DNA from: an uncultured Schlesneria sp.
Lineage (GTDB): Bacteria; Planctomycetota; Planctomycetia; Planctomycetales; Planctomycetaceae
Length of the DNA: 64,000 bases
Assembly (NCBI GenBank): GCA_903899985.1
Contig: CAIULL010000174.1
Location: forward strand, 1 to 64,000
Direction of reading: 5' to 3'
Below, piece after piece: positions 4 to 16,093 of the stretch. The notes beneath the pieces were generated by a model. It made no database searches. It worked only from the letters and a program-made list of their open reading frames with translations, and had not been told where the DNA came from. The position numbers and the translations under genes were made by a program. Position 1 is the stretch's first letter, and each line of letters opens with the position of its first letter.

Positions 4-312
4 CTTTCGTGTTTTCGTGATCCTCCTGGTGACTTTAACTTCTACGAATAGAAGAAGAGGTAAACCAATCACGAAAACACGAAAGTCCGAAAGCACGAAA
101 AAGAGAAAGAATAAGCTTGATCGAACTCGGGTGAACTCAGGTGAAGTCGCGCGAACTCGGGTGAACTTTTTCATGACGGAAACATGGGGAGCGGTCGCCA
201 AAAGCCTATGATTTACGAGGGTTGGTCGAAGTCGCGCGAACTCAGGTGAACTTTTTGAACAAATTTTCTTGCGTGATGACGGCAGAGCCGAAGTGAAGGA
301 AAAGTCCGAGGG
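4..312. repeat. Long direct repeat, copy A
   Basis: First of two diverged copies of a ~310-bp non-coding module; the second lies at 703-1021. Shared parts in order are an 18-bp inverted repeat (4-21 and 68-85), a run of octamers resembling CACGAAAA (70-110), five 10-bp units of the GAACTCGGGT type in register from 121 to 170, a spacer with CATGACGGAAACATGGG, another short run of decamers around 228-257, and a tail with GGCAGAGCCGAAG. The ORFs across it differ between copies and encode low-complexity peptides, so I read it as non-coding. Function unknown. Confidence 0.85.
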
Positions 313-416
313 GGCGCCGTGTCGGCGAGAGAGTCGTTTCGAGAAAGTAGCAAGTAGAAATTACAAGAAAAATCCGGTGGATATCTTGCGCAGCTCGCCT
401 CAGAGAAATGATGGAT

Positions 417-546
417 TCGAACTTGATCGAACTGCGTCGAACTCGATCGAACTGTGACACCCCAAAAAACGGAACAAAAATCGCGAAAACCCCATGAATT
501 GTTGGGAATGGTCGAAGTCGATCGAACTTGATCGAACTGTGACACC
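417..546. repeat. Decamer arrays between the two long repeats
   Basis: Two arrays of 10-bp units of the form TCGAACTNNN. Four units occupy 417-456 and three occupy 512-541. Both end in TGACACC(C). Between them, CCATGAATTGTTGGGAATGG resembles the spacer near 916-933 in copy B, so this looks like a third, more degenerate partial copy of the module. Exact 10-bp spacing places the GAACT core on one face of the helix. I see no coding potential. Confidence 0.75.
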
Positions 547-702
547 AAATTCCGGGAGTCGTGATCTCAGCAGAATGGAAGTTGAAGATTTTTGAACAGA
601 AGTTAATGACATGAAGATCATCGCACGAGATCTTCGGTCCAGCCATTTGTGATGACGCGGGAGTCACTCGCACTACTGCATGCATTTTTTCGTGGTTTCG
701 AA

Positions 703-1021
703 CTTTCGTGTTTTCGTGATCCTCCTGGTGACTTTATCTTCTGCGAATAGAAGAAGAGGTAAACCAATCACGAAAACACGAAAGTTCGAAAACACGAAAA
801 AGAGAAAGAAGATGCTTGATCGAACTCGGGTGAACTCAGGTGAAGTCGCGCGAACTCAGGTGAACTCGGGTGAACTTTTTCATGACGGAAACATGGGAAG
901 CGGTCGCCAAAAGCCTATGAATTATGGGGAATGGTCGAAGTCGCGCGAACTCGGGTGAACTTTTTGAACAAAACTAGTTGCGTTGTGGCGGCAGAACCGA
1001 AGACGAAGGAAGAGTCCGAGA
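703..1021. repeat. Long direct repeat, copy B
   Basis: Second copy of the module at 4-312, offset by 699 bp. It keeps the 18-bp inverted repeat (703-720 and 767-784), the octamer run and the decamer array. The array has six units here (821-880) against five in copy A, so the copies differ by exactly one 10-bp unit, as expected from slippage or unequal recombination. Similarity resumes weakly beyond 1021, with three more decamers at 1061-1090 that match the area around 408-430 after copy A. Confidence 0.85.
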
Positions 1022-1130
1022 GCTTACGCATCTCGGCACGCCGGGGAGATATGATGGGATTCGAACCTGAGCGAACTCGGGTGAACTTTTCGATCGAAAC
1101 TTCTGCGTCGGGCTGACGAATCGATCGGCG

Positions 1131-2444
1131 TTAAAGCCTTGTGATCCGATATCCGGGATGCTGGGGCGTAAAAAGTTCGTCGAGTAATCGGACGCCCAGG
1201 CCAGGGCGAGCTGGTGGTGCGATGTGTCCCTTGACGACTGTCGGGGGTTCATCGATCAGCATGGGGTAGATGGTTTTGATGTGCGCCCGGACTGTTTCTT
1301 GGTACGTGACGTTAGCGCAGGACATTGTCACATTCAGTCCGGCAAACAATGTTAACGGGCCGGTGCAGTCGTGCATGAGAACCGGGATGTTAAATGCCTG
1401 AGCCAGTTCCGCGGCGCGGCGGGTTTCGCTGATCCCGCCCACCCACGTTGGATCGATCATCGCGTAATCGGCCGCGCGTCGTTGAAGCACCTGTCGATAT
1501 TCTTCGCGGCTGACCAGCATCTCGCTGACGGCAATCGGGACTCCCGCTCGATCACGGAAGTCGGCGATCGTGTCGACACAGTCGGGTCGAATGACGTCTT
1601 CCAGCCAGAGGGGTTTCAGTTCTCGCATCGCCTCGGCAATGCGGAGAGCTGCGGGAAGAGTAAAAAAGCCGTGGCCGTCGAGCATCACTTCCATCTTGAG
1701 ACCGACTCGTTCGCGAATTGCCCGGAACGGCTGCAATCCTTCTTCGAGATCGGTCCAGCTGACTCGATGACCACCGCTTTGTTTGTAGATGCGGTCTAAC
1801 GACCAGAGCTTCATCGCGGTGTAACCTTCGGCCAGCAGTTCCTCAGCAAGGTCCCCGGGGTTATGCACGCTGTTGTAGTTGTCTTCCAAAGGACCGGGAC
1901 GGCCCAGGTCACCGTGGCCGGGCCAACCTGACGAGGGTGGGTCCTGGTTACCGTCTGCATAGGGACGTCGTCCATAGCTGGGGCCTCCACAACTGTTGTA
2001 AACCGGAATGGAGTCCCTGACCGCTCCGCCGAGCATTCGCCAGACGGGCTGTTGAGTCAACTGGCCGAGGATATCCCATAAGGCCAGGTCGATCGCGCTG
2101 ATCGCTCGCAGTTCGCAGCCACGAACACCAAACGCAGTTCCTCGTTCGTACAGAAACCGCCAGTGACTTTCGATCGCCGTCGCATCAGCACCGAGCAATC
2201 GTCGCGACATCCAGTCGTGCAACGACGCGGCGACCGCTTGTGGAACGTAATACGTTTCGCCATGTCCGATGACCGATTCGCCACCTGCGGTTCCCGCGTC
2301 TGTATGCAGACGCAGCAGCAGTAATCCCCCCATGATATCGTGGGGAATCAGGGTCTCGATCGCCGTGATTCGTGGTCCGTTTCGGAACGCATGCTCTTGA
2401 GTGGGACTCGACGCTCGGAACAGATGGTCTTCGGTCTTTCGCAT
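1131..2444 (-). CDS. Enolase-superfamily (mandelate racemase/muconate lactonizing type) dehydratase-like protein
   Basis: A 437-residue protein with the enolase-superfamily fold: N-terminal capping domain to about residue 140, then a barrel. The likely metal ligands are visible as Asp256 (MLDGHG), Glu282 (WLEDVI) and Glu308 (AVSEML), with Lys212 (MKLWS) at the end of the second barrel strand and a His-Asp pair at 358-359 (LMHDC). The family abstracts a proton next to a carboxylate, and many members dehydrate sugar acids such as galactonate. The substrate cannot be read from sequence. An extra Gly/Pro-rich loop lies at about 150-195. The gene is on the same strand as the Rieske and ABC genes, separated by 138 bp, so operon membership is uncertain. 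Confidence 0.85.
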   Translation of the reverse strand: MRKTEDHLFRASSPTQEHAFRNGPRITAIETLIPHDIMGGLLLLRLHTDAGTAGGESVIGHGETYYVPQAVAASLHDWMSRRLLGADATAIESHWRFLYERGTAFGVRGCELRAISAIDLALWDILGQLTQQPVWRMLGGAVRDSIPVYNSCGGPSYGRRPYADGNQDPPSSGWPGHGDLGRPGPLEDNYNSVHNPGDLAEELLAEGYTAMKLWSLDRIYKQSGGHRVSWTDLEEGLQPFRAIRERVGLKMEVMLDGHGFFTLPAALRIAEAMRELKPLWLEDVIRPDCVDTIADFRDRAGVPIAVSEMLVSREEYRQVLQRRAADYAMIDPTWVGGISETRRAAELAQAFNIPVLMHDCTGPLTLFAGLNVTMSCANVTYQETVRAHIKTIYPMLIDEPPTVVKGHIAPPARPGLGVRLLDELFTPQHPGYRITRL

Positions 2445-2582
2445 TTTTCGTTAATACCCAGCATGGTTCATTTGTTTTTGTGGGAAACCCTGTGTGGCCC
2501 CGGCACGCGACGACAGTAATTCACGTCCCTCGCTTGCGCGTCGGGCTGAGGTTGCAGGGTGTTTTTTGCGAACTTGTTTTGC

Positions 2583-2921
2583 TCACGATTTTGGTTTTGG
2601 GACTTCGACCTGAATTTCGTCCCCCATGATTCGGACGGCATAGGAATCGGTCCGGACTTTGGATTTGGGGTTGTCCATCCAGATCCCATCTTTGACGCAG
2701 AACTTCCAGGCATGCCAGGGACAGATCACATCGCAGCCTTCGAGGTAACCCGAAGCGAGCGACGCACCCATATGCGGACACGAATCATTGATCGCGAAAT
2801 ATTGTCCATCACGCCGGAAGACGGCGACCAGTGTTCCATTCAGGGGAAACGCGCGTCCTTCTCCTTCGGGGATCGAGTCGGTTTTACATACGGCCTGAAA
2901 TTCCATGCTGTCGTCAGTCAT
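2583..2921 (-). CDS. Small Rieske [2Fe-2S] ferredoxin (NirD/BphA3-like)
   Basis: A 112-residue stand-alone Rieske protein. The cluster-binding motifs are clear: CPHMG (Cys-X-His) in the middle, followed about 15 residues later by CPWHAW (Cys-X2-His). Such small ferredoxins pass electrons to oxygenases or serve as the small subunit of nitrite reductases, but no oxygenase or nirB lies nearby. The gene starts 9 nt after the stop of the ABC permease, so the two are almost certainly co-transcribed. The functional link to an exporter is unclear. The protein has no signal peptide and is probably cytoplasmic. Confidence 0.9.
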   Translation of the reverse strand: MTDDSMEFQAVCKTDSIPEGEGRAFPLNGTLVAVFRRDGQYFAINDSCPHMGASLASGYLEGCDVICPWHAWKFCVKDGIWMDNPKSKVRTDSYAVRIMGDEIQVEVPKPKS

Positions 2922-2930
2922 CGTCCACTT

Positions 2931-4586
2931 TCACTGAACTATTGTCGTGCTCGGGTCAAAACGGTCGTAGGCGATAATGAGCAGTGGCACAAGAGCTCCG
3001 CACTCGATCACCAGCACAAAGCCGGCACAGGCGACCGCCACCACGGGTGACTGAAGTGCCAGTGCTCCGGGTAATGCTGCAATGACGACAAAGATGGCGG
3101 CAGCACCCAGCATCAGCATTTTAAGGGTCATGAAGATCATTTGCTTTCCCGAGTTCTGAAAGTCGCCCGGAGCCCCCTTAGCCAATCGAGTGGGATAAAT
3201 ATAAAAGACCAGCTTGTCGATGCCGAAAAGCAATAAATTCAGGGGCAATGTCAGTAAGGCTCCGCAAAGCAGCCACGAGGCAAGGTTTGAAAAGCAGCAG
3301 GCCAGAACGGCGATAAACAACGATTGGATGACCGAGAGCAGGATGGGAAAACCGATCATGTCACCGATGACGACTGAAATGGGTCGGAGCGGAAGCGACT
3401 TGAGATAACCAACCCTTTCGATTTCGTTTTGTAGCGATAAACAGATGAGGAAACTCATGTAGGCCATGGCTCCCATGCCGACGAAGGGGGCCGCAATGTT
3501 ACGCCCAGGTGCTGAGCCCGAGCGTGCGATCATGACGACCAATCCTGCGGCGAAGGCGACGGCACCCGCAAGTACCCACAAAAGTCTGGATGAGGACCGA
3601 AAGGTCGTTGTCATCCGTTGCCACAAGACTGGACCGATCCCGCCCCAATAGGGAAGTTGAGCAATTTTTCGTTGTGCGATCGAGGAATCTCTCTTTGATT
3701 CGAATGCGTGCCAGGCTCCCTTGGACTGGATCTGCTTGAGTCGCTCCGTCATTTTTTCGCTGATTGCTAAAGCCGATTCCAACGACAGGGCATCCAGCCG
3801 AAATGCCAGCAGCAGCAGGGCCAGATCAACGGCAAACAGGATGGCAGCGTAAGGGAGAAAGGTTTGCCAATTGGGGGCGGTGAGTGCTCGAACAAAAACA
3901 AAGAACGGTGCGAGCATCAGTTTGCCGGCAGTCGATTCGCGGAACACTTTGAGGTAGGCGTCAAAATCATTGCCGTTGACTGACTGAAGGGTTTGGGTGA
4001 TCGCCATAAAAACCAGAATGCTGAAGATCAGGGCAATTGATCGCCGGATGACAGCGCTGAGTTTTTCTTCGAGAATCTGCCTCACGAACGACACGTTCAT
4101 GGTCAGCAGTTGTAAAAACGACAGTGTCATGATGACTGCCAGCCAGCGGGGGATTGCCATGGCGAACCGGGGGCTGGTGAAGACGCCAAAAAACAGCGAG
4201 ACCCCTGCGATACCGATCAGGCTTTTCAAAAGGAGATAGGCGAGCAGTTGCTTGCGCGTGATCGGTGCCGGAAAAAGAAATGCGGCTTCGCTGGCGGTGA
4301 AATAGACGGTTGCCTCACCCGTGGAAAACACGAGTGTATAGAACGTGAAAGCAAACAGACCCAGAGGGAGGAAGTCGTTTTGCATTTTGTTGAGGACATC
4401 GGTGACTTGCGGAGTCTGTGACCCGACTCGGCTGGCGACGTAAATGGATCCCAGGCCATAGAGGGACATCACCACGACAAATCCGACAAAAAAAAGTCCT
4501 CGCCAGGTGCGAAGACTTCGGCCCAACTGGCGGAAACCGCCTCGCCACTGGAATCGGATCAGCTTCCACAACGCGGGATGAAACAT
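2931..4586 (-). CDS. ABC exporter permease (ABC-2-like)
   Basis: A 551-residue integral membrane protein with roughly a dozen hydrophobic segments, beginning around residues 30-50 and ending near 500-540. A hydrophilic stretch at about 270-330 probably faces the cytoplasm. It resembles the large permeases that pair with an ABC-2-type ATPase. The ATPase gene lies directly upstream with a 29-bp gap, so the two form one exporter. The substrate is unknown. The Rieske gene follows within 9 nt on the same strand. Confidence 0.8.
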   Translation of the reverse strand: MFHPALWKLIRFQWRGGFRQLGRSLRTWRGLFFVGFVVVMSLYGLGSIYVASRVGSQTPQVTDVLNKMQNDFLPLGLFAFTFYTLVFSTGEATVYFTASEAAFLFPAPITRKQLLAYLLLKSLIGIAGVSLFFGVFTSPRFAMAIPRWLAVIMTLSFLQLLTMNVSFVRQILEEKLSAVIRRSIALIFSILVFMAITQTLQSVNGNDFDAYLKVFRESTAGKLMLAPFFVFVRALTAPNWQTFLPYAAILFAVDLALLLLAFRLDALSLESALAISEKMTERLKQIQSKGAWHAFESKRDSSIAQRKIAQLPYWGGIGPVLWQRMTTTFRSSSRLLWVLAGAVAFAAGLVVMIARSGSAPGRNIAAPFVGMGAMAYMSFLICLSLQNEIERVGYLKSLPLRPISVVIGDMIGFPILLSVIQSLFIAVLACCFSNLASWLLCGALLTLPLNLLLFGIDKLVFYIYPTRLAKGAPGDFQNSGKQMIFMTLKMLMLGAAAIFVVIAALPGALALQSPVVAVACAGFVLVIECGALVPLLIIAYDRFDPSTTIVQ

Positions 4587-4615
4587 GATTTAAACCTGGC
4601 AGAAAGGAGCCGTCA

Positions 4616-5371
4616 TTATTCTTTTGTGGCGTCGGATACGACCTCGGTCCTGGATTCGGTGAACTGGAAAAAAATGTCTTCGAGCGAGGTGTCTGTGCCG
4701 GCCGTTTCCATTCGGCTTTTGGCTTCGGCGATTGTTCCCTGAAACAGGCATTGCCCTTTATGCAGGATCAAAAGATGGCTACAAAGGTCATCGATCAGGT
4801 CAAGCAGATGCGAGCTGACCATGACGGCCGCTCCTTCCGCCGCCCGTTCGCGAATCGAGGATTTTAACGTACGAATCCCGCGTGGATCGAGACCGGTCAG
4901 CGGTTCGTCGAAGATGATGGCGACGGGATTGTGGAGGTAGGCACAGCAGATCGCGACCTTTTGACGCATCCCTCGCGACAGTTCCTGAGCGATGGTGTTT
5001 CGTTTTTCGGTCAATTCAAATTTTTCGAGAAGCCGTTCGGCTTCATCGGCGAAATTGGTCATCCGATAAACCGAAGCGGTGAATTCAAGATGTTCCCAGA
5101 CGGTCAGGACATCGAAGAGTTGGGGTTCATCGGGAATAAACGCCAGTCGGCTTTTGGCCGCGATCGGATCATCGACGATGTCGAAGCCTTCCACTGACAG
5201 TCGCCCTTTGGACGGGGGGATAATCCCGGCCAGTGCCCGCATGGTCGTGGTTTTTCCAGCTCCGTTGGGTCCGACCACCCCCAGCACGGAACCAGCAGCG
5301 ACGTCAAAAGTTAATCCGCGAACAGCCACTGTGTTACGGTATGATTTTTCATAACCTTCGACGCGAATCAT
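4616..5371 (-). CDS. ABC transporter ATP-binding protein
   Basis: A 251-residue nucleotide-binding subunit. Walker A is GPNGAGKTT near residues 34-42, the signature is LSRGMRQK near 130, and Walker B is AIIFDEPLTGLDPRG with the catalytic Glu. The D-loop and switch His (SSHLLD) follow. The architecture is that of ABC-2 exporters such as CcmA/NatA-like ATPases. It is the first gene of the minus-strand group ATPase-permease-Rieske. Upstream lies a 371-bp divergent gap shared with carA, where its promoter should be. Confidence 0.92.
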   Translation of the reverse strand: MIRVEGYEKSYRNTVAVRGLTFDVAAGSVLGVVGPNGAGKTTTMRALAGIIPPSKGRLSVEGFDIVDDPIAAKSRLAFIPDEPQLFDVLTVWEHLEFTASVYRMTNFADEAERLLEKFELTEKRNTIAQELSRGMRQKVAICCAYLHNPVAIIFDEPLTGLDPRGIRTLKSSIRERAAEGAAVMVSSHLLDLIDDLCSHLLILHKGQCLFQGTIAEAKSRMETAGTDTSLEDIFFQFTESRTEVVSDATKE

Positions 5372-5742
5372 GGGTGGCTCATCACTCGTTGGGAATCAGA
5401 ACGTCTGGATCGAGGCCATCTCGACAGGCTGCACCTGACGACTTTTGATTGTAGGCAGTCAACTTAGGATTTACATTCCACAGACAAAGACGCTTTTTTC
5501 ATGGCCACCATTTATGTTGTGGTGTGTTTGTCCCCCCAAGCGGAGCAGCAGTGCGGTCTTGCTGCAGGAATCACGCAAACACGCTGCTTCTTTGCAGGCT
5601 CTAAGACCGTATGACTGCATTTTGGCGGGCAGGTCAAAGTGTTTCGCTGCATCAGGATGACTTAAACGGGTGAGCACTTCATTTTCCCCTTTCTGTGTGT
5701 TACAACAATGTGCTCAAAAATGAACTTTGGATACGGAAAATC
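5372..5742. other. Divergent intergenic region, no gene seen
   Basis: This gap separates the minus-strand ABC ATPase from carA. Both strands carry ORFs of about 70 codons, but they are Cys/Ser-rich, lack recognisable motifs and overlap each other antisense. It must contain the two outward promoters. I could not assign convincing -35/-10 pairs or a pyrimidine- or arginine-responsive leader. Confidence 0.5.
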
Positions 5743-6870
5743 ATGAGTCTGCTGGCATCTGCAAAACTTGCTCTCGCTGATGGTACGGTCTACGCGGGGA
5801 CGGCATTTGGAGCGACTGGCGAGGTTTACGGAGAGGTCTGCTTCAATACGAGCATGACCGGGTATCAGGAAATTCTGACCGATCCTTCGTATTGCGGCCA
5901 GATTGTGGCGATGACGTACCCGTTAATCGGAAATTACGGAGTCAACAGCGAAGACACCGAAAGCCGGGGGCTGTTTCTCCGAGGTTTTGTTGTCCGCGAG
6001 CTGTGTCGACAGCCAAGCAATTTTCGCTCAAATGACACCCTTGACGCGTATTTGCGTAAAAACAATGTGATTGGAATCGAGGGGATCGACACTCGATCGC
6101 TCGTTCGCCGATTGAGAATTCGTGGTGCGATGACCGGTGTCCTTTCGACGACGGATCTCGACGATGCATCACTGGTGAGAAAAGCCCAGGAAAGCCCGGC
6201 GCTGGTCGGTCAGGATCTGGTGCAGGAAGTCATGCCAAAAGCTTCGTTTGACTGGACCGAAGGGTTGTCAGAACTTGGCAGCAGTGGAACGATCGTGACG
6301 GCGAGGTCTGGTCGCGAACGGCACGTGGTTGCGATCGATTACGGGATGAAATGGAATATCCTCAGGCATCTGAAATCGTTGGGCTGTCGTGTCACTGTGG
6401 TTCCCGGCACGTCGACCGCCGAGCAGATTCTGGCCTTAAAGCCCGATGGGGTGTTTCTTTCAAACGGGCCTGGCGACCCTCGTCCGCTGAACTATGCGAT
6501 CGACACGATCCGAAATCTGCTGGGCAAAGTTCCTGTGTTTGGAATTTGCCTTGGTCATCAACTGCTGGGGCTGGCGTGTGGGGCCGAGATTTACAAATTG
6601 AAATTCGGCCATCGTGGTGGAAACCAGCCGGTCTTGAATAAAGAGAGTGGCCGAGTCGAAATCACGTCGCAGAATCATGGTTTCGCGATTTCTGGTGATT
6701 CGCTGCCCAAGACTCTGGAAGTGACGCACGTGAATTTGAACGATCAAACGATCGAAGGGCTTCGCCATAAGGACTTTCCCGCGTTCTGCGTCCAGTATCA
6801 TCCGGAAGCGTCTTCCGGGCCGCACGATAGCAGTTATCTGTTTCAAGCGTTTTATCAACTGATGAGTTAG
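5743..6870 (+). CDS. carA: Carbamoyl-phosphate synthase, small (glutaminase) subunit
   Basis: It hydrolyses glutamine and passes ammonia to the large subunit CarB for carbamoyl phosphate, used in pyrimidine and arginine synthesis. The N-terminal CarA domain opens with ALADGTVYAG and contains the GYQEILTDPSY block. The C-terminal class I glutamine amidotransferase domain has the nucleophile in GICLGHQLLG and the His-Glu pair in YHPEAS. I chose the ATG at 5743, giving 375 residues, because the in-frame ATG 48 nt earlier adds a tail not found in the family. ndk follows 14 nt downstream. carB is not in the window, although argG lies 42 kb away. Confidence 0.95.
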   Translation: MSLLASAKLALADGTVYAGTAFGATGEVYGEVCFNTSMTGYQEILTDPSYCGQIVAMTYPLIGNYGVNSEDTESRGLFLRGFVVRELCRQPSNFRSNDTLDAYLRKNNVIGIEGIDTRSLVRRLRIRGAMTGVLSTTDLDDASLVRKAQESPALVGQDLVQEVMPKASFDWTEGLSELGSSGTIVTARSGRERHVVAIDYGMKWNILRHLKSLGCRVTVVPGTSTAEQILALKPDGVFLSNGPGDPRPLNYAIDTIRNLLGKVPVFGICLGHQLLGLACGAEIYKLKFGHRGGNQPVLNKESGRVEITSQNHGFAISGDSLPKTLEVTHVNLNDQTIEGLRHKDFPAFCVQYHPEASSGPHDSSYLFQAFYQLMS

Positions 6871-6884
6871 AGAAGGAATTGTCG

Positions 6885-7352
6885 ATGGCGGTCGAACGTA
6901 GTTTTGTTTTGTTGAAACCAGATGCCGTGGCTCGTCGCCTGGTCGGAGAAATTCTCGGCCGGTTCGAGTCTAAGGGTTTGAAAATCGTTGGCATGAAGAT
7001 GCTGAAGGTGACTCCTGAACTTTCCAAGCAGCATTATGCAGAACATGTTCATAAGCCATTCTATCCAATGTTGGAAGAGTTCATTACGTCTGGCCCGGTT
7101 GTGGCGCTCGCCGTCGAGGGGCCTCAGGCCATTTCTGTCATTCGAGCGATGCTTGGTTCGACAAACGGACGTGAAGCACCACTAGGCACGATCCGCGGTG
7201 ACTTTGGTCTCAGCCGTCAGATGAATCTCGTGCACGGAAGCGACGGCCCTGATGCCGCCGCTCGCGAACTGGGAATTTATTTCAAGCCGGAAGAATTGAT
7301 CGGCTATTCCACGTCGCTGGACCCCTGGACGTGTGCTGGTGACGAAAAGTAA
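6885..7352 (+). CDS. ndk: Nucleoside diphosphate kinase
   Basis: It transfers the gamma phosphate between nucleoside triphosphates and diphosphates through a phosphohistidine. The 155-residue protein shows the substrate-binding LKPDAV motif near the N-terminus and the catalytic His in NLVHGSD. The C-terminus (SLDPW) matches the usual length. I prefer the ATG at 6885 because AGAAGGA at 6871-6877 is 7 nt upstream of it and almost touches the alternative TTG at 6879. It is co-transcribed with carA and ends at a strong terminator. Confidence 0.95.
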   Translation: MAVERSFVLLKPDAVARRLVGEILGRFESKGLKIVGMKMLKVTPELSKQHYAEHVHKPFYPMLEEFITSGPVVALAVEGPQAISVIRAMLGSTNGREAPLGTIRGDFGLSRQMNLVHGSDGPDAAARELGIYFKPEELIGYSTSLDPWTCAGDEK

Positions 7353-7380
7353 CCTTCGCGACGTGCAGGGTTGATGATGC

Positions 7381-7416
7381 AAGGTGGGCCGAGCTTTGAG
7401 GCCCACCTTCTTTTTT
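7381..7416 (+). terminator. Rho-independent terminator after ndk
   Basis: A perfect 10-bp stem (AAGGTGGGCC at 7381-7390, GGCCCACCTT at 7400-7409) with a 9-nt loop is followed by CTTTTTT. It lies 28 bp after the ndk stop. The A run before the stem could also support termination of minus-strand transcripts from the moxR gene. Confidence 0.9.
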
Positions 7417-7530
7417 GGCAATTTGCTGGCGATCCCACGGGAGAGGGATGCTCCTGCCAAGCCGCAATGTCGATGCGAGTACCTGCTTGGCCACTCGTCG
7501 GAAGCCGCGCCGTTGTGATCAGCCATACAA

Positions 7531-8604
7531 TCAACCGCGAGCGAGCTTTTCCGCTCGCTGGTTAAGTTCCACCGGGATCTTTTCGATCAGCATGTCAACC
7601 ACGCTGTCGGCATTGATTCCTTCACTTTGAGCGGCGAACGTTGTCACGAGACGATGTCGTAAAACAGGATGAGCGATCGCTTTGATATCCTCGGTCGTCA
7701 CATGGAATCGACCTTGCAGCAGTGCTCTGGCTTTGGCTCCAAGGATTAAATTCTGCCCGGCGCGCGGTCCCGCACCCCACGACAGATATTCTTTGACGAA
7801 CTTCGGGGCATCGGTTTCTTTGGGCCGCGTGGCCCGGACGAGGTCTCTGGCGTAAACGAAAACATGTTCCGCCACCGGGACCTTTCGCACGACTTCCTGC
7901 AGCGCCAGGATCTGTCGACCAGTCAAGGTGACGGAAAGTTGTGGTTCTTCGCCGCCGGTGGTTTGCTTGAGGATTCGCAGTTCTTCTGCGGCATTTGGAT
8001 ATTTGACGACGATGTTGAACATGAATCGGTCGAGTTGGGCTTCGGGAAGCGGGTAGGTCCCTTCTTGCTCGATCGGGTTCTGGGTTGCCAGTACAAAAAA
8101 CGGAACAGGCAATCGGTAGGTGTTCGAACCGACGGTAACATGTCGTTCCTGCATGGCTTCCAGTAATGCGGCCTGAGTTTTCGGCGGCGTTCGATTGATT
8201 TCATCGGCAAGCAGGACGTTGGTGAAGATTGGTCCCTGCATGAACTGAAACAGTCGACGGCCTGATTCAGGATCTTCCTGCAGGACGTCGGTGCCTGTAA
8301 TGTCGGATGGCATCAGATCGGGCGTGAACTGGATTCTTCGAAACGAGAGTTGCAGGACTTTGGCGACAGTGCTGACGAGCAGTGTTTTGGCAAGACCGGG
8401 TACACCCATTAAGAGGCAATGAGATCGACAAAACATGGCGATCAATAATTGATCAACGACATCGTTCTGACCAATGATGACCTTACCGATTTCGACTCGC
8501 AGTCGGGAATAAGCACTCGCCAGACCACGAATGGCAGCCATCTCCCGTTCGCGTGCGGTGGCATCTGCCGCGGTTGCGGGATCGTCATTCGCTGCGGCAT
8601 TCAT
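7531..8604 (-). CDS. MoxR-family AAA+ ATPase
   Basis: A 357-residue AAA+ protein of the MoxR/RavA clade, thought to act as chaperones for assembling metal- or cofactor-containing complexes. Walker A is GVPGLAKT at 67-74, Walker B is LLADEIN at 131-137, and the [15 protein letters not shown] helix and ATQNP sensor 1 follow. The C-terminal AAA lid carries the usual [16 protein letters not shown] block. MoxR genes are typically beside a DUF58 gene. Here the nearest DUF58 gene is about 10 kb away on the other strand, so the usual operon is broken. Confidence 0.92.
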
Positions 8605-8861
8605 CTCGTCTGTCTTTCTGTGGATCGAGTTTTTGACGAAAGGGGATTATTATCATGACGTGACGTCTGAAAATTCTGGCGACAAGTTATGATCCAGCCG
8701 AGCTCCGTTAACGTTAAGAATTGTCTGTCAAAGTCACTGAAATTCCAATCGTAGCCCGATATTCGCTCAAAGAAGTGTGCAAGATACGGGATTCAACCCT
8801 TTGAAGCCGATGTTTCTTTTCGAACAAGATCGCCAGTCAGCGCCAAACGAGGAACCGCTCA
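8605..8861. other. Divergent promoter region
   Basis: This gap lies between moxR (minus) and the hypothetical membrane protein (plus). It contains a 10-bp palindrome TTAACGTTAA at 8708-8717 that could be a regulator site. I see no gene in it. Confidence 0.35.
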
Positions 8862-9527
8862 ATGTCAAATAACGATCCCTGGATTGATTCGAAAGCTGAC
8901 GTTCCAAAGCCACCGGCGGCAAAACCGATGAATGGCTGCCTGCTTGCCAGCTTGATCGTCGGCGGCCTTGGCATGGTGTGCCTGATGGTCTGCTGCGGAG
9001 CTTTTGCGTGGGTTGCATACTCGATGAAACCAACGATCACCAACGTTCCGGCCGAAGTTCGGGCGGTGAGTCAGCAAATCTTAGCGATCAATATTTCAGA
9101 TGATTTCATTCCTGAAAATGCCGTGACGATGGAAAACATGATCTTTACGAATCGGACGGTGACATTCCGGCATAAAGAAGGAAAAGGCCAGTTGTTGATG
9201 GGGACGATCATGCTGAAAATGGTTGATGCCAACCAGGCGAAACTTCAGTCAGGACAGATGCGCGGCCCGCTTGAAATACAAGTGCGAAACAATCTGGACA
9301 TCAAAAAAACCGAATCTCGGGAGATTATGATCAACGGTCAAAAGGCGTCGGTAGAGATCGTTGAAGCGACAGATCGCTCGACCGGCAAAGGGGTTCATAC
9401 GGCCGATCTGAATCTCAGTTTGCCTAACGGGGAGATCTTTATCCTGCTGCGATTAGATGACGACGTCTGGGACGAGGCAGCAGTGTTGAAGATGCTGGAA
9501 GAGTCAAAAGTCCCGGGCGGGGAATGA
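8862..9527 (+). CDS. Single-pass membrane protein, paralogue of the gene at 47054
   Basis: A 221-residue protein of unknown function. After a short Pro-rich cytoplasmic stretch, one membrane segment runs from about residue 27 to 50 (GCLLASLIVGGLGMVC and on). The rest is an exported or lumenal domain with beta-rich, charged sequence. The extracellular part shares an ordered pattern with the product of the gene at 47054-47680: VTMENM, then a G-K/R-G motif followed by LLMGTIMLKM in one and LLVGQMHIKM in the other. Both end in an acidic helix. The two are paralogues of an unnamed, probably planctomycete-specific family. The start follows GAGGAACCGCTC. Confidence 0.8.
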   Translation: MSNNDPWIDSKADVPKPPAAKPMNGCLLASLIVGGLGMVCLMVCCGAFAWVAYSMKPTITNVPAEVRAVSQQILAINISDDFIPENAVTMENMIFTNRTVTFRHKEGKGQLLMGTIMLKMVDANQAKLQSGQMRGPLEIQVRNNLDIKKTESREIMINGQKASVEIVEATDRSTGKGVHTADLNLSLPNGEIFILLRLDDDVWDEAAVLKMLEESKVPGGE

Positions 9528-9542
9528 AGGACGATGAGTTTG

Positions 9543-10481
9543 TCATGCCACGTCGCGATTCCGGCCCCCACCGGCCGGGGGAATCCGGTTTCCTGACGAT
9601 CGTCGTCGAGCGCGTCGATGTTCCCGTTCCAGATCATCAATCGCCAGACCCATGTGGTAAACCTCTTCGGCAAGGTGGTCGATCCGCCACGAAACTTCGT
9701 GGACGGTCTGTTCCATCCCGGCGGAGATGAGCGTCACCACACCCAGGAATAACAGCATTTGGCCGACTGCAGCAGTCAGCCAGCCTTTGGGCATATATTC
9801 GGCTGGCCCGCCAAAATAGCTCCACATGACCAGCACTGTGCCGCAAGTCAGCAATCCAACGCCGGCGTAAGCACAGAGCTGACCTGCAGCGGTTGACCAG
9901 CTTGTTCGCCGGGCCAACTGCTTTTGGAGAGCATTTCGAACGACGTGATCGTGATCTAAAAGCGTTTGAGAATTGTCGGTTGGGTGATTGACGTCATCGC
10001 GTCGAGAAGAAGGCTGATCCTCGGTCTCTTTGGCAAGTTGTGGAGCAGTTTCCTGCTTTTGCCGGACAGCTCGCTTCTTTCCCTTTGGTTTGTCTGGTTC
10101 AGAATCCAAAGGGATGACAGGTGCTGGCTCGAGATTTTCGCTATTGGATGCTTTGAACTGTGCCGAGGGTGCAGGGATTGCTGGCTGAGGCGGATCAACT
10201 CGATGTTCCGGCCTGGCGGAGATATTTTCCTGGGTGGGTGTTGGGGACGTCCGAGCGGCTGTCGGCGACAATGAAGCAGCGTCGAGAAGGTTTTGAGCCG
10301 ACCAGCGCGCCAATAATTCTCGAGCGTCGCGCTCAGTTTCCACGGCACGCGGGGCGTTAACGACTCGTGAAGTTTCGAAAGCAGCAATGCCAAGTTCCGA
10401 TTGACAACGAGCGCAAAGCATCCGTCGGTTGTCCGTGGACAACTCGGCCGCGACATCAGCCCGGCACGAAGAGCACCACAT
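9543..10481 (-). CDS. Zinc-ribbon protein with two C-terminal membrane segments
   Basis: A 312-residue protein of unknown function. The N-terminus holds a treble-clef-like zinc ribbon with Cys3/Cys6 and Cys23/Cys26. Next comes a long Pro/Ser/Lys-rich linker of low complexity (about 60-170). Two membrane segments follow at about 205-225 and 240-260, then a charged helix rich in Glu/Arg that may form a coiled coil (about 262-297). The plan suggests a cytoplasmic metal-binding head tethered to the membrane. It converges on the 8862 gene with a 15-bp gap. Confidence 0.75.
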   Translation of the reverse strand: MWCSSCRADVAAELSTDNRRMLCARCQSELGIAAFETSRVVNAPRAVETERDARELLARWSAQNLLDAASLSPTAARTSPTPTQENISARPEHRVDPPQPAIPAPSAQFKASNSENLEPAPVIPLDSEPDKPKGKKRAVRQKQETAPQLAKETEDQPSSRRDDVNHPTDNSQTLLDHDHVVRNALQKQLARRTSWSTAAGQLCAYAGVGLLTCGTVLVMWSYFGGPAEYMPKGWLTAAVGQMLLFLGVVTLISAGMEQTVHEVSWRIDHLAEEVYHMGLAIDDLEREHRRARRRSSGNRIPPAGGGRNRDVA

Positions 10482-10902
10482 CGGTCAATTCCGCAAGGTT
10501 AATTCTGAGACGAAAAGAAAACGAGAAGGGGCGGTGAAAATGCCACTTATCGCGCGGAGGCTATCGAGACTCCGTTTTTACTGCAAGATCGGTTCATTCG
10601 TTTAAGCGTGTAGACGAGTAAATGACTCGAAATCAACCGCCCACGGATCAACCAGGGATGCCCGAGAAAGATGCTCGCTGCCTGTGGTTTTTGCCCTTGA
10701 ACATCTTTCTCAATTTCAAGATTCCTAGTGAGTCGTGTAGTGATCAGCGGTAAGACCCATAAAAATTGCTGGTTTTCGTCGGTTTGACGATCCTGGCTGA
10801 AAAAATCATCGTTACCCCTCCAAGAAATCAATCAACGGCACCAAGGTTGCACTACGTCAAATGCTTTGCTGAACAGCGACTTGTGAAGTCGTAGGAACAT
10901 TC
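10482..10902. other. Intergenic region, no gene seen
   Basis: A 421-bp gap between divergent genes. A weak hairpin (CGGAG at 10555 pairing with CTCCG near 10571, then TTTTT) looks like a small plus-strand terminator with no recognisable gene before it, which could indicate a short RNA. The minus-strand 94-codon ORF here has no family features. Confidence 0.3.
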
Positions 10903-11526
10903 ATGAGCATCATTACGTGTCGGTCCCATTTTACTCGTGAAACACCGAGTTTCTTTTTGGGGCAACCTGCGGAAGTTCTGCTGAATTACGTTGGCGGTTC
11001 AACCGGTTCCTGGCGAGTGAACAGCGTGACGACTCATTCTGGTGCGCCTTTAAAAACGGCGACGCACGTTGAGATCGTTAATGGCAGGACTTTCCGTCCC
11101 CAGATGGGGGCGTCATGGGTTCTGCGTGGTATCGTGAAAAATACCAGGTTTGTCACTCGGGAAGAGCGTCCAGCGCTGGAGCCACGGTATTTCAAACAGG
11201 GACCTGTCGAATCGACGTGCGCGGCGTTAATCCCGATTCGAAAGTCTGCCGCCTGGTGGAATCTCGAACATGACGAACGGCAAGAGATCATCGAAGATCG
11301 ATCGAGGCAGATCGGCCGAGGGATGCGATTTCTCCCTGCGATTGCGCGCCGATTTTTGTATGGAAGAGACTTGGGCGAGCCATTCGATTTGGTGACGTGG
11401 TTTGAGTACTCAAGCCGTGATCAATCGATTTTCGACGATTTAGCCGGTGCACTTCGTTCATCGCTGGAATGGCAATACATTGAACGCGAAATTGACATCC
11501 GATTAGTTAAAGAACCGCGAAAGTGA
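10903..11526 (+). CDS. Chlorite-dismutase-like (HemQ/ChdC superfamily) protein
   Basis: A 207-residue member of the chlorite dismutase family, recognised from CAALIPIRKSAAWW, the GRGMRFLPAIARRF helix, the RDLGEPFDLVTWFEYS strand and the C-terminal SSLEWQYIEREIDIRLV block. Relatives decarboxylate coproheme to heme or detoxify chlorite. In homologues I remember, a His lies just before the RDLGEPFD block and would be the proximal heme ligand. Here that position reads FLYGRDLG with no His, so heme binding is doubtful. hemB is in the same window but 22 kb away. Confidence 0.8.
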   Translation: MSIITCRSHFTRETPSFFLGQPAEVLLNYVGGSTGSWRVNSVTTHSGAPLKTATHVEIVNGRTFRPQMGASWVLRGIVKNTRFVTREERPALEPRYFKQGPVESTCAALIPIRKSAAWWNLEHDERQEIIEDRSRQIGRGMRFLPAIARRFLYGRDLGEPFDLVTWFEYSSRDQSIFDDLAGALRSSLEWQYIEREIDIRLVKEPRK

Positions 11527-11678
11527 ACGCGTGAAATCGATTTTTTTCCGAGAATGAGTTGTAAATCACGGTCGGCTGATTTCCTGCCGGACCCCACCCC
11601 TTTGCGAGTTTCTGTGTCGTATGCCTATGATGGCGGAGGTTTTCTGCCACAAGGCCACACGTCCTGGAAATTCACTTC

Positions 11679-14606
11679 ATGAGTTCGTCATCGACATCGG
11701 AAGGATCGGTACCGCCGGAGGAACCGGAACACACGTATCGACTCTCTCAGGAATCACCGATTGCGCCTGAGGGGATCCAACCTCCGCCACCTGTCAAAAA
11801 ATACGTCTCGAAAAAGTCACCGAAGCCAAAGACATCGAATTTTGTCGCTATGATCGGCTTTAACGTGCTGGTATTTGTGACAAGTGTCTGCGTGATGACT
11901 TTGGAGTTAACCGCCTCGCGTCTGATCGGCAAGCATGTTGGTTCGTCGCTTTACACCTGGACGTCAGTCATCGGTGTCGTGCTTGCCGGGATCACGCTGG
12001 GGAACTGGTTAGGTGGGTGGTTGGCAGATCGGTTTGATCGCGCGCGTTCGCTTGCATGGATGTATCTTCTTGCCAGCTTGTCGTGCGGCAGCGTGTTGTG
12101 GCTGGACCAGTTGGTGGGCACGATCCCGCGGCCCGAATCATTAAGCTGGCCGGCCTGGGTGCTGACTGTGGTTGCCCTGATCTTTTTACTTCCTGCCTTG
12201 GCGTTAGGGACGACTTCGCCACTGGTGGCGAGCATGGCTCTGGATCGCGGTTCCAAAACCGGTTCAACAGTCGGAAATGTTTATGCATGGGGGGCTCTTG
12301 GATCGATTGTCGGGACGTTTCTGACAGGGTTTTATTTGATCGATGTTTGGGGGACCCGTTCGATTATTGGTCTGACTGCCGTCACTCTGGCACTTCTGGC
12401 GGTGATTGTTGTCGGAACGCGGCACATTTTCCGGACAGCGGTCGTGCTGGGTTGGCTGCAACTGCTGGGCTGGATAATGCTGTTCGCGACGGCGCAAACC
12501 CATGTCCTTGCGGCGGCAGGGCACACGATGGGAAAGTGCCTTTCGGTCGCTCAATCGAAACATGAGGCCGCGCTGACTCAAGAAAAGTGGATGACGTTCG
12601 GCGGCCAGGTCGGCGACAAGTTTCATGAGATTGGCCTGATTCTGAGATTACGAGATGACCCTCTGCACAAATACCACGATGAGAGCAACTATTCCGACAT
12701 CCTTGTCAGTGACACGGTACTTAATGACAAAACGATCAAAATGCTGAGGCTCGATAAACTGATCCACAGCTATTACGACCCGGACGATCCAACATCGCTG
12801 CATTATGAGTATGAAAAAGTCTACGCTGCGGTAACCAAAAAGGTGGCCGCGCCCTCGAATCTGGTGCCATTGGTTCTGCCACTGGACGGGCTGTCCGGCG
12901 TGACGTTGACCAGTCAGGAGTTGCCCGACGGAGTTGTCCTCGATGAAGCAAATCAGTTGTTACGGATTGAGCAGCCCTCGAACGAAGTCTTTACCCGTTT
13001 GCTCGCGTTGGCTCCTGAAGTGAACTACTGGAAAGCCGTCGAGCAATTGCAGATAGAAACGATCAAGCCATCCTGGGGCGGTTTTTCTTCCGTCAGCCTG
13101 ACAACGTTGCCGGAAGGCGTCGTGATCCCCGATGATTTTGGATCGACCATTCGCCATGACGAAACGCTACAGGTGTTGATCGCCTATCGACCACTTTCCA
13201 AAGACGATCGAGACCGGCTGATTGCCAGCACTCGTTCGGCGGTCTGGCATCAGACCATTACAAAGCTTTTGCGAGAATCGCGACGATCAACGGCTTGCTT
13301 TTTTGGGGGTGGCGGATTCATCTTTCCCCGATGGTTTCTGCAGGAATTTCCCGGCAGTACACGGATCGATGTCGCGGAGTTGGACCCGGCCGTTCATCGT
13401 GCGGTCCAGAAAGAAATGGGACTGACACCCGAGTTAGAAACGCGGATTCATACGACAATCGGTGATGCGCGAAACTTCGTCGACGACCAACTACGAGCGA
13501 ATGGGCAACGCCGCAGCCGTGGCGAGTCACCGATCACTTATGATTTCATTTACGCTGATGCCTTCAATGATTTCAGTATTCCGTGGCACCTGACGACTCG
13601 AGAGTTTCTACAGAAAACGCACGACCTGCTGAGCGATCAAGGTGTGTTTCAGGCCAATATTATCGATATCTATCCGCGCACTGAATATCCCGGCACTCTC
13701 GTCGGTGTCGCCGAAGCGGAATATAGCGGTCGACTTCCCGTTGGGGTCCTGTTAGACGATGTTCGGAGAGATAAGCTCGTACCCGCGGCCAAGCCGTTCG
13801 CACCACTGGAAGTCATGGAACTGGTGACCAATCGATATCGGTTGCGAGTTCCGCGAACACTGACGTCTGCAGAAGAACAGAAGTTACTGAACGTCACCTG
13901 GCCGTCTGTTAAGAAGCAAACTGAATTTGAGGTTTCCAAAGGGTTTCAGCCCGAGATAAATTTGACTGACGAAAAGGAAGGCTGGGCCAGGTCAATCTCT
14001 GAACTCGCAAAACAGTCGCAGAAGCGAATGCCCTACGTCGGTGAAATTCCAGAACAACTCGAAGCCGCCGGCGGGAAACTTGAAGGCTGGGTGCCAGCAA
14101 CATCCCCGTTTGAATTTGTTGAGGTTTATCGGCTTGGTGGAGACCGGCATATTCTTGGCTTTCGCGGGATCGTTTCCGATGACGCTGCACAACGATTAAT
14201 TCAACTTGATTCACAAAATAAGGCCTGGTCTGACGCAGTAACGAATGCGGCGAGACGATCGCGTCTCAGTGGAGGGGGCCGCTTTATGGGCCGTTATGTC
14301 GCAACGGCTGCAAAGGTTTTTCCGAACATTTACCTGTTTAGCACGTCATACCAGCAACCAACCGCGAACCGGGACACCTTCGTCATGGTTTGTTCACGTC
14401 AGCCCATCGATCTGAAATCGCTGGACAATACTGGGGAATGGACGGGCGGCCCCTTCGCGTCGTTGCAAACGGAATCGGGGCGATCAGAACCGACGTTGAG
14501 CGGTCAGATGAGTGCTGTGCTTGCGCTTGCCGAAGGCCGGATCCTGAACGATGACTTTGCTCCTGTCGATAACCTGCTTGTCCCCGTCTTCATGTCGCAA
14601 GAATAA
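11679..14606 (+). CDS. Fused MFS-like membrane domain / spermidine synthase-like protein with extra repeated modules
   Basis: A 975-residue protein. Residues 1-54 are a Pro/Ser-rich cytoplasmic tail. About eight membrane segments cover 55-280 (CVMTLELTASRL, then the GNWLGGWLADRF loop typical of fused spermidine synthases). The domain from about 305 begins like spermidine synthase (KYHDESNYSDILV). The nucleotide-binding fold resumes at 538-580 (CFFGGGGFIFPRW, VAELDP), with IYADAFNDF at 624-632. The end (NDDFAPVDNLLVPVF) is also family-typical. Inserted at about 400-530, and again at 715-750 and 812-860, are short modules with a W-X-X-A/T helix that resemble each other. The substrate is unknown; true polyamine aminopropyl transfer is not assured. 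Confidence 0.85.
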   Translation: MSSSSTSEGSVPPEEPEHTYRLSQESPIAPEGIQPPPPVKKYVSKKSPKPKTSNFVAMIGFNVLVFVTSVCVMTLELTASRLIGKHVGSSLYTWTSVIGVVLAGITLGNWLGGWLADRFDRARSLAWMYLLASLSCGSVLWLDQLVGTIPRPESLSWPAWVLTVVALIFLLPALALGTTSPLVASMALDRGSKTGSTVGNVYAWGALGSIVGTFLTGFYLIDVWGTRSIIGLTAVTLALLAVIVVGTRHIFRTAVVLGWLQLLGWIMLFATAQTHVLAAAGHTMGKCLSVAQSKHEAALTQEKWMTFGGQVGDKFHEIGLILRLRDDPLHKYHDESNYSDILVSDTVLNDKTIKMLRLDKLIHSYYDPDDPTSLHYEYEKVYAAVTKKVAAPSNLVPLVLPLDGLSGVTLTSQELPDGVVLDEANQLLRIEQPSNEVFTRLLALAPEVNYWKAVEQLQIETIKPSWGGFSSVSLTTLPEGVVIPDDFGSTIRHDETLQVLIAYRPLSKDDRDRLIASTRSAVWHQTITKLLRESRRSTACFFGGGGFIFPRWFLQEFPGSTRIDVAELDPAVHRAVQKEMGLTPELETRIHTTIGDARNFVDDQLRANGQRRSRGESPITYDFIYADAFNDFSIPWHLTTREFLQKTHDLLSDQGVFQANIIDIYPRTEYPGTLVGVAEAEYSGRLPVGVLLDDVRRDKLVPAAKPFAPLEVMELVTNRYRLRVPRTLTSAEEQKLLNVTWPSVKKQTEFEVSKGFQPEINLTDEKEGWARSISELAKQSQKRMPYVGEIPEQLEAAGGKLEGWVPATSPFEFVEVYRLGGDRHILGFRGIVSDDAAQRLIQLDSQNKAWSDAVTNAARRSRLSGGGRFMGRYVATAAKVFPNIYLFSTSYQQPTANRDTFVMVCSRQPIDLKSLDNTGEWTGGPFASLQTESGRSEPTLSGQMSAVLALAEGRILNDDFAPVDNLLVPVFMSQE

Positions 14607-14613
14607 CGGTGAG

Positions 14614-14634
14614 GGGTCTGTGAATCGCAGACCC
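14614..14634. terminator. Hairpin between convergent genes
   Basis: A perfect 7-bp stem (GGGTCTG and CAGACCC) with a 7-nt loop, 7 bp after the stop of the spermidine synthase-like gene and before the convergent phosphoesterase gene. No clear T run follows, so termination is only probable. Confidence 0.5.
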
Positions 14635-14684
14635 GGTTCGCCGTATTTAATCAATTTCGATCAAAAATGTTGAGAATTGTTTTC

Positions 14685-15680
14685 TCAGTCGGCGGGGACG
14701 TTCTTTCTGCGAAGCCGAATGACAAATGCGGCGAGCCCACCAATTGCGAACAGGGCCAGGCTGGATGGCTCGGGAACAGGTGCTATCGCATCGAGTCCGA
14801 CGGCGTTACCAATGCGACCGAGGTCGAAGTTATCTTCGATCGTCGCGAGGACATTATAGTGATTGATGGACTGCGCCGAGGTTGTCCCTGGAGTAATACC
14901 CGCGCCAGATAGGATTGTGGCAATGTGGTTGGTTGAACTGAAATCATCTTCATCCCAAGTGACGATTAAGAGGCTGTTGTGCGTTTCCGCCCAAACTCGA
15001 TAAGCGTCCATATTACCCTGCAGCCAGGTATCCCCATTCTGAATTGCTATTGCATCGGCAGCGGGGTTTGAAGAGCTTGCTCCATTATGCATATCGTTGA
15101 TCTGATTCGGCGCGACGAATGCAACGCTTGGCAACGTGGAGAAATCGGTTGGGAAAGAAGCAAAAGTCTGGTTTGTGTTGGCGGGTAGCAGATTGCCGTT
15201 CAGAGTGTTGCTGGTCCCGTTTTGAAAATTCACGCCCGCGTTGTGCTTGGCAGCATAGAGAGCACTGTTAAATGTGTCCCCGGTGTAGCCGACAGATGGC
15301 ATCGTTTCATTGTAACCAGCGTAAGTCAGCCCGGCGTGCAGCAACTGCTCACCGAGGTTTGGAGCGTTAAGTGGCCATTGCGGTTGGTTGGGCGGAACAA
15401 GTCCAGAAATGTTCGGGTCGCCAGTGACACCCTGGGTTGACCCTGAGAACAAAGCGATATAATTGGGCTGGCTGGGATGAGTCACTGCGTAAGATTGCGT
15501 CATCAATAGCCCACTGGGAATCAGCGTATTGTTAATATAATTCGCAGCGGAATTTCCGACGATGTCGCTGAAACCGTGATTTTCTTCTATCACAACGACG
15601 ATGTGGTCCCATCCGGCGTTTGCGGGGGCCGCGCCCGCGACGGATCCAAAAATAGCCAGCAAAGAAATAATCCGTTTCAT
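14685..15680 (-). CDS. Secreted phosphoesterase (acid phosphatase/phospholipase C-like) with PEP-CTERM anchor
   Basis: A 331-residue exported protein. The start at 15680 (MKRIISLLA) follows GGAGAA with good spacing, unlike the ATG 12 nt upstream. A signal peptide covers about 1-22 (cleavage near ANA-GW). The phosphoesterase core shows VVIEENHGFSDI near the start, THPSQPNYIALFSG with the likely catalytic Ser/Asn region, and LIVTWDEDD near the end. The C-terminus has a PEP-CTERM signal: VPEPSSLALFAIGG, a hydrophobic segment and RLRRK. That signal is normally processed by an exosortase, and none is present here. Confidence 0.9.
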   Translation of the reverse strand: MKRIISLLAIFGSVAGAAPANAGWDHIVVVIEENHGFSDIVGNSAANYINNTLIPSGLLMTQSYAVTHPSQPNYIALFSGSTQGVTGDPNISGLVPPNQPQWPLNAPNLGEQLLHAGLTYAGYNETMPSVGYTGDTFNSALYAAKHNAGVNFQNGTSNTLNGNLLPANTNQTFASFPTDFSTLPSVAFVAPNQINDMHNGASSSNPAADAIAIQNGDTWLQGNMDAYRVWAETHNSLLIVTWDEDDFSSTNHIATILSGAGITPGTTSAQSINHYNVLATIEDNFDLGRIGNAVGLDAIAPVPEPSSLALFAIGGLAAFVIRLRRKNVPAD

Positions 15681-16093
15681 CAAATTCTCCAATGCTTGGG
15701 TTCAGGCAACAGCCATCGATCCAGCGCGCTTGACCAAAGGACTTAATCGTTCCCACGTTTCTGATGCCGCCGCGGTCGGAATATACGGAAATGACGTGAT
15801 CGTTCGTTTTGTGAGAGGAACGTTGGCATGAGCAATCAAATGACATTTATTTGGAAAGAATCAACGCTCGTTCTAAAAACTGCGGATATTGTACGCCCAA
15901 TGAAGTGGATCGGAACAGGTATGTTTTTGATGCTTCAAACGCCGATTTGAATTTGCTTCGACGACGAGTTTTACTCACAAGACCGCACTCATAGCTAAGT
16001 TACGAACGAAGCCGGGATTGACCGATTTGCGAGTCGTGACTAAAAGCCACAGTGACCGTTTCGGATTCGAGATTGTGGCAAGGAGTGCCAGAG
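15681..16093. other. Divergent intergenic region
   Basis: Upstream of both the PEP-CTERM phosphoesterase (minus) and the TPR lipoprotein (plus). A possible plus-strand -35 (TTGACC near 16018) lies in it, but no convincing -10 follows at ideal distance. I see no gene. Confidence 0.3.

Follow-up and report, generated by a model that had tools for sequence, protein, structure and literature searches.

The first 1.1 kb of the window, a stretch of 64,000 nucleotides that opens contig C174 in the MAG of an uncultured Schlesneria (assembly of 8.0 Mb in 296 contigs), contains copies of a composite, directional repeat element that is dispersed over the genome and is followed, on its downstream side only, by a GC-skew domain of about 10 kb. 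Both the polarity of the sites and this one-directional, strand-asymmetric footprint were measured. The reading that we tentatively favour, with slightly less than even confidence, is that of a clade-specific, dispersed, non-coding polar site which launches a unidirectional process, preferably local strand opening with strand-displacement synthesis; the participation of a protein, the opening of the strands and the choice of replication over transcription or strand transfer are what we infer. The features of the window are as follows:

4-102, no strand assigned: CACGAAA palindrome module, copy 1, with 18-bp perfect arms at 4-21 and 68-85
123-172, plus strand: element 1 (type A), variable array of five decamers, final unit GAACTTTTTC
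173-227, plus strand: element 1 linker with conserved box AAAAGCCTATGATTTACGAGGGTTGGTC, 65 bp from core to core
225-257, plus strand: element 1 three-unit hairpin dyad, GTCGAAGTCGCGCGAACTCAGGTGAACTTTTTG region, with units at 228-257
419-458, plus strand: element 2 (type B), variable array of four TCGAACT-type decamers with TGATC, GCGTC and CGATC spacers
459-513, plus strand: element 2 linker, 65 bp from core to core
511-546, plus strand: element 2 three-unit hairpin dyad, with units at 514-543
686-801, no strand assigned: CACGAAA palindrome module, copy 2, with 35-bp arms that are 97% complementary
822-881, plus strand: element 3 (type A), variable array of six decamers, equal to element 1 plus one
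882-936, plus strand: element 3 linker with box AAAAGCCTATGAATTATGGGGAATGGTC
934-966, plus strand: element 3 three-unit hairpin dyad, with units at 937-966
1016-1036, plus strand: companion REP-like hairpin CCGAGAGCTTACGCATCTCGG
1061-1092, plus strand: fourth element, partial (TCGAACCTGAGCGAACTCGGGTGAACT)
1131-16000, plus strand: downstream GC-skew domain, skew +0.067 to +0.073 up to 16 kb

The decamers had been described as lying in exact 10-bp phase, and period-10 tandem arrays were indeed confirmed, with five units at 123-172, four at 419-458, three at 514-543 and six at 822-881. The one-unit difference noted between the two module copies was also recovered: they match at a distance of 699 bp ahead of the array (96% over 164 nt) and of 709 bp beyond it (86% over 171 nt), a difference of exactly one decamer. 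The arrays of the original prediction are therefore real, but the second array of three units that follows each phased linker (228-257, 514-543 and 937-966) had been missed. That no mobile-element gene forms part of the element held true. The two circumstances named beforehand as speaking against such an array, a decayed gene and decamers present in single copy, do not apply: the number of units shifts in 10-bp steps, there are stops in the box, the open reading frames over the array have no Pfam match, and the 8.0-Mb genome has 73 occurrences of GAACTCRGGTGAACT as compared to zero of the reversed control pattern, far more than chance would give. The CACGAAA palindrome module, with 35-bp arms and a 46-nt loop in the copy at 686-801, is MITE-like and was found almost solely beside decamer clusters. 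The decamer elements themselves have no terminal inverted repeats of the MITE kind, the 35-bp arms belonging only to this companion module, and their decamers are contiguous, without the spacers of a CRISPR array.

A search of the genome for further copies, as the original prediction had proposed, yielded an outcome that it did not foresee, namely about 52 clusters per genome, many of them at orthologous sites of sister species. In the window genome, the first 1.1 kb gave 105 Blast matches, and the clusters (about 52 by hand count) were often located at contig ends. Across the 170 family genomes searched, arrays with four GAAST units at 10-bp spacing were numerous solely in the window genome and in three of the other 14 Schlesneria genomes (G001, G004 and G005), while two further genomes had a single, unrelated-looking array match each. 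The relatives that share the element are uncultured Schlesneria MAGs of a freshwater group, and no match to the element was obtained in viral contigs or in plasmid and phage records. One element was also observed in G006, which is otherwise devoid of them (L167, 2970-3200, on the 3.3-kb contig C65, beside TGACGAAGGTGCTCAAGCC tandem repeats), and represents either a stray contig or a relic.

The clusters are intergenic, with no constant orientation of the adjoining genes, and each site is made up of one to four elements in direct orientation; L130 was the sole examined locus with array matches on both strands. According to the flanking proteins, many clusters share their site between two or three species, but orthologous sites differ in the number of elements, the length of the arrays and the type; the cluster positions are thus old and their internal turnover is fast. 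Tandem duplication of modules was found in the window, L036 and L071. At the element-downstream ends of the clusters L034, L131 and L140, which represent one orthologous site across several species, there is a C-type relative of the element; it has the same box and CCAACTTGG units of 9-bp period. Contigs that carry two distinct clusters (C253 and C57 of G000; C48, C51, C70 and C162 of G004; C99, C247 and C297 of G005; C194 of G001) showed 10 convergent, 1 divergent and 6 same-direction arrangements by hand count, which is only suggestive since some are orthologous pairs. No common function was found among the genes neighbouring the clusters. DUF1501 was considered as a common neighbour (7 own clusters; L032, L052, L070, L071 and others) and was rejected as not significant, given about 117 genome matches and 203 families compared. 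Two individual neighbours were recorded: a DDE transposase with a SWIM zinc finger between two decamer clusters (L040, 6260-7468, on C71), and a gene for a 23S rRNA-intervening-sequence protein near a cluster (L060, 1622-2197), the latter with a sub-threshold Pfam match.

The anatomy of the element was quantified on 144 copies from four genomes. The variable array consists of 2 to 15 decamers, each being GAACT or GAAGT followed by five bases, in support of the earlier claim that array length is dynamic. The linker, taken as the distance between the final core of the variable array and the initial core of the second one, was 55/56 or 65/66 bp in 134 of the 144 copies (Rayleigh p ~1e-55), and the exceptions were mostly one base off or displaced by one or two decayed units. 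Among copies of the 65/66 class, the variable part of the linker is only about 52% identical, while its 3' part is the conserved box AAAACCCTATGAATTACGAGGAATGGTC. The second array has exactly three units in 131 copies. Two element types were distinguished, A with GGGT/GCGC spacers and B with GATC/GCGTC spacers, and the type agreed between the two arrays of an element in 129 copies. The gaps between successive elements showed little or no periodicity (p 0.03 at 10 bp). Quantisation of the linker in 10-bp steps is a feature of the DNA helix, although helical phasing is not universal, as the C-type relative has a period of 9 bp.

A hairpin in the second array emerged unprompted when 20 copies were submitted to RNAalifold. 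The core of unit 1 in this array was GAAGT in 129 of 131 copies, compared to 20% in the variable arrays; it can pair with GAACTTT of unit 3, leaving AACT of unit 2 as the loop. Of the 11 stem pairs, 10 or more form in 85% of the second arrays but in just 2.7% of variable-array triples. Over 14 pairs, 86.8% of the cells of the dyad were paired, with a covariation score of 0.143; the shuffled control gave 0.096 (0 of 500), and sliding gave no more than 0.046. Folded as DNA, the dyad reached -13.5 kcal/mol (z -3.8) in type A and -9.3 kcal/mol (z -3.0) in type B, while the variable arrays gave no structure. Since GATC and GCGC are self-complementary, matched types pair automatically, and the GAAGT bias is the stronger argument for the hairpin. 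The idea of a protein-binding array, as originally proposed, is supported in part, through the phased repeats and the quantised linker, binding itself being an inference; it does not hold for the three-unit array, which is a hairpin dyad and not a plain binding array. 

Further modules accompany the arrays. The leader TTGATCTTTGACATCTTGGAAT is usually located 105 to 400 bp upstream of the first array, accompanies the arrays in 22 own clusters and 31 from MAGs, in no case on the opposite strand, and was absent elsewhere in the sampled DNA; the leader of the window, if any, would lie beyond the contig end. It agrees at 9 of 11 positions with the published gamma-proteobacterial boxA consensus GYTCTTTAANA (PMC5725501); the sampled DNA contained no 16S gene. 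The REP-like hairpin module accompanies 8 of the 45 own clusters and 10 of the 54 in MAGs, in every case on the strand of the element, and a further companion module, TTTTTGAACAGAAGG, recurs in the same places on the same strand. At more than 2.5 kb from clusters, no companion module was detected in about 190 kb, apart from one palindrome match. The hairpin of the element itself, of 27-33 nt, is flanked by conserved TGGTC and ACCARATTTC, without a GTAG or CGTC tag as borne by the 20-40 bp palindromes of the REP (GTAG/CGTC) family (PMC3733652). Intergenic tandem repeats of other periods, with GTTGCCCA and GACGAAGGTGCTCAAG units, were observed within these islands, consistently on the strand of the element, at the downstream end of the cluster in L112 (2417-2667) and at the element-downstream end in L129. 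Rfam gave no match in the window and, in four other loci, only Acido-Lenti-1, several kb away from clusters; in L029, this RNA (RF01687) lies at 7130-7176 (minus strand) and 7316-7361 (plus strand), about 4.6 kb from a decamer cluster, with one copy above the gathering score.

The skew analysis, in which DNA was oriented by the element strand, was exploratory: the window genome gave the initial result, and the sister MAGs then provided the replication sets. In the window, GC skew decreased beyond 16 kb to +0.038 up to 20 kb and was about zero or negative at 20-32 kb, and four-fold sites had a skew of +0.251 in same-strand and +0.127 in opposite-strand genes. For the own clusters, successive 2.5-kb downstream bins gave +0.043, +0.050, +0.047, +0.037 and +0.032, and the skew was gone by 15 kb, while upstream it was indistinguishable from zero. 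At four-fold sites, the values for same-strand and opposite-strand genes were, respectively, +0.150 and +0.052 in the downstream 12.5 kb, +0.044 and -0.069 far downstream, and +0.120 and -0.048 upstream; in sister MAGs they were +0.140 and +0.037 downstream against +0.033 and -0.062 upstream. This shift of about +0.1 is seen in genes of both orientations and hence belongs to the DNA strand and not to gene direction, so that gene orientation was excluded as its source. 

The extra long flanks of sister MAGs repeated the domain over a shorter range (0-7.5 kb). When pooled, 35 of 38 clusters were positive downstream (p 1.6e-7) and the paired skew step had p 0.002 (23 clusters), orthologous clusters not being fully independent data points; the replication set alone gave p 0.08 for the paired step (14 clusters), with significant 0-5 kb bins. 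Using 5-kb flanks, 24 of the 26 clusters with both flanks were positive. Shifting the anchor centred the step between the cluster and about 2.5 kb upstream, and in the 1-kb profile the skew sets in no more than about 1 kb upstream of the leader. When two element-like 8-mers were used as anchors, there was no positive skew step, and no dose-response was detected with the number of units, the number of elements or the type. Other oriented repeats were unusable as a control, as they were found almost only beside clusters. Orientation by replichore, suggested by the first skew test, was abandoned, given an upstream skew of about zero and the frequent convergence of clusters that share a contig.

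The domain was then related to the presence of the element. Matching neighbourhoods in the element-free relatives G002, G007 and G012, for which synteny is partial (1-5 shared genes per site), had a mean skew of +0.004 (11 of 20 positive, p 0.67) compared to +0.041 here (paired p 0.003). In 38 orthologous genes of the same orientation, four-fold GC skew was 0.106 here and 0.025 in these relatives (p 0.007), with TA skew unchanged. The reading of the skew as a property of the gene neighbourhoods was rejected, as it was unseen in relatives that lack the element. The complete relative G002 showed an ordinary two-replichore skew, indicating that the genus has a normal chromosome-wide asymmetry on top of which the local domains lie. 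The four-fold TA/GC ratio of the domain (about 0.42) is close to the replication slope of G002 (0.37+-0.09), while that of the coding effect is about 0.7 in this clade and 2.3 in G002.

Under the favoured reading, the variable decamers would act as iteron-like sites for a multimeric DNA-binding protein, and the helically phased linker with its conserved box would join them to the hairpin-forming dyad. DNA may open locally at the phased iterons beside the hairpin, and strand-displacement synthesis, iteron-assisted and hairpin-marked, would run for about 5-12 kb in the element direction, possibly primed by a transcript from the leader, in which case transcription and replication would be combined. 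Such a process would leave the element strand rich in G over C. Synthesis is favoured by the sign of the skew, which makes the element strand leading-like, together with the TA/GC ratio near the replication slope of G002. The 25 Pfam families with the most matches in 118 flanking proteins included no replication-initiator family, and no initiator, nickase or binding protein was identified. The GC-only change in orthologs does not fit a simple deamination of the exposed strand, and the lack of dose-response, the unchanged TA skew and the relative with a 9-bp period are left unexplained by this reading. The more specific proposal, that about 50 dispersed chromosomal sites start short unidirectional DNA synthesis, or a comparable strand opening, extending about 10 kb downstream and for long enough to imprint neutral sites, is doubtful. 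To our knowledge, secondary one-way initiation zones of such a kind have been described in no bacterium.

Long antiterminated transcription, the main rival, was considered as a somewhat unlikely source of the skew. According to this explanation, the boxA-like leader would act as an antitermination site, RNA polymerase would produce a structured non-coding RNA from the module array and continue for about 10 kb whatever the gene orientation, and the skew would be transcription-associated. The constant strand and exclusive location of the leader, its resemblance to boxA and the presence of every module on one strand, several of them as hairpins, are in accordance with it. Downstream genes, however, are not enriched in co-directional ones (119.6 kb same and 103.8 kb opposite in the own genome; 92.9 and 105.5 kb in MAGs), a distribution that speaks against heavy read-through; the first downstream gene is more often opposite than same, where read-through should be costly, the TA/GC ratio is nearer to replication than to the coding effect, and the quantised linker points to the DNA helix. 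A rolling-circle or oriT-like nick site, where a nickase would cut beside the hairpin and the downstream strand would be displaced or transferred single-stranded, was judged very improbable, even though the order of iterons, hairpin and displaced downstream strand as well as the sign and decay of the skew fit it, and the genome has 11 HUH Y1 transposase genes. These Y1 genes are equally common in element-free relatives, with Y1_Tnp in all 15 genus genomes, and the MOBP relaxase (PF03432) was absent from all 15 genus genomes searched for that family; moreover, the plasmid and phage records gave no match, and no conserved nick site was defined.

It is also distinctly unlikely that the clusters are a neutral, BIME-like mosaic of interspersed repeats, arising by local spread or duplication and by slippage, in which neither the site nor the skew reflects a process. 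The mixture of repeat kinds (palindrome, REP-like hairpin and other tandem repeats), the tandem module duplications, the variation in array length and type between orthologous sites and the lack of a common function in neighbouring genes would be expected of such a mosaic. Neutral repeats, however, should not retain a linker of 55/65 bp despite a drifting sequence, keep three units in one array against 2-15 in the other, preserve GAAGT in unit 1, or coincide with a one-sided skew step that is reproducible. Bacterial repeats of the interspersed kind are commonly regarded as inert or as weak regulators, whereas this family shows clear signs of constraint, and one-sided asymmetric domains of about 10 kb are present with the element and missing without it. 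If a process truly starts at these sites, it would be a new way for dispersed sites to shape mutation and perhaps replication or transcription, and the idea lends itself to direct testing, with both the sites and the predicted direction at hand.

When compared to known systems, an interspersed, mosaic, hairpin-bearing repeat is of a familiar kind, while none of the families tested matches the phased iteron-linker-dyad anatomy and the one-sided skew domain. The element resembles REP/BIME in being dispersed, intergenic, mosaic, hairpin-bearing and clustered in tandem, but it is a decamer array with a three-unit dyad instead of a palindrome pair, is strictly directional and has the one-sided domain. 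As in boxA-led non-coding RNA or CRISPR leaders, a boxA-like leader precedes a directional repeat array; the element has no spacers, and the link to boxA is one of resemblance only. With KOPS, Chi and Ter it shares an orientation that is informative relative to DNA strand asymmetry, yet its sites are long, composite and not replichore-oriented, and its skew is local, with an upstream value of about zero. Centromere arrays of the ParR/parC type likewise have two arrays of direct repeats of about 10 bp with a spacer between them, whereas the second array of the element is a hairpin dyad, the sites number about 52 and no par operon was seen alongside. The iteron origins of the plasmids R6K, P1 and RK2 are similar in their phased direct repeats of constant unit and, in some, in polar initiation; the element, with no Rep gene seen nearby, differs from them in its roughly 50 chromosomal places and in its extra hairpin and phased linker.
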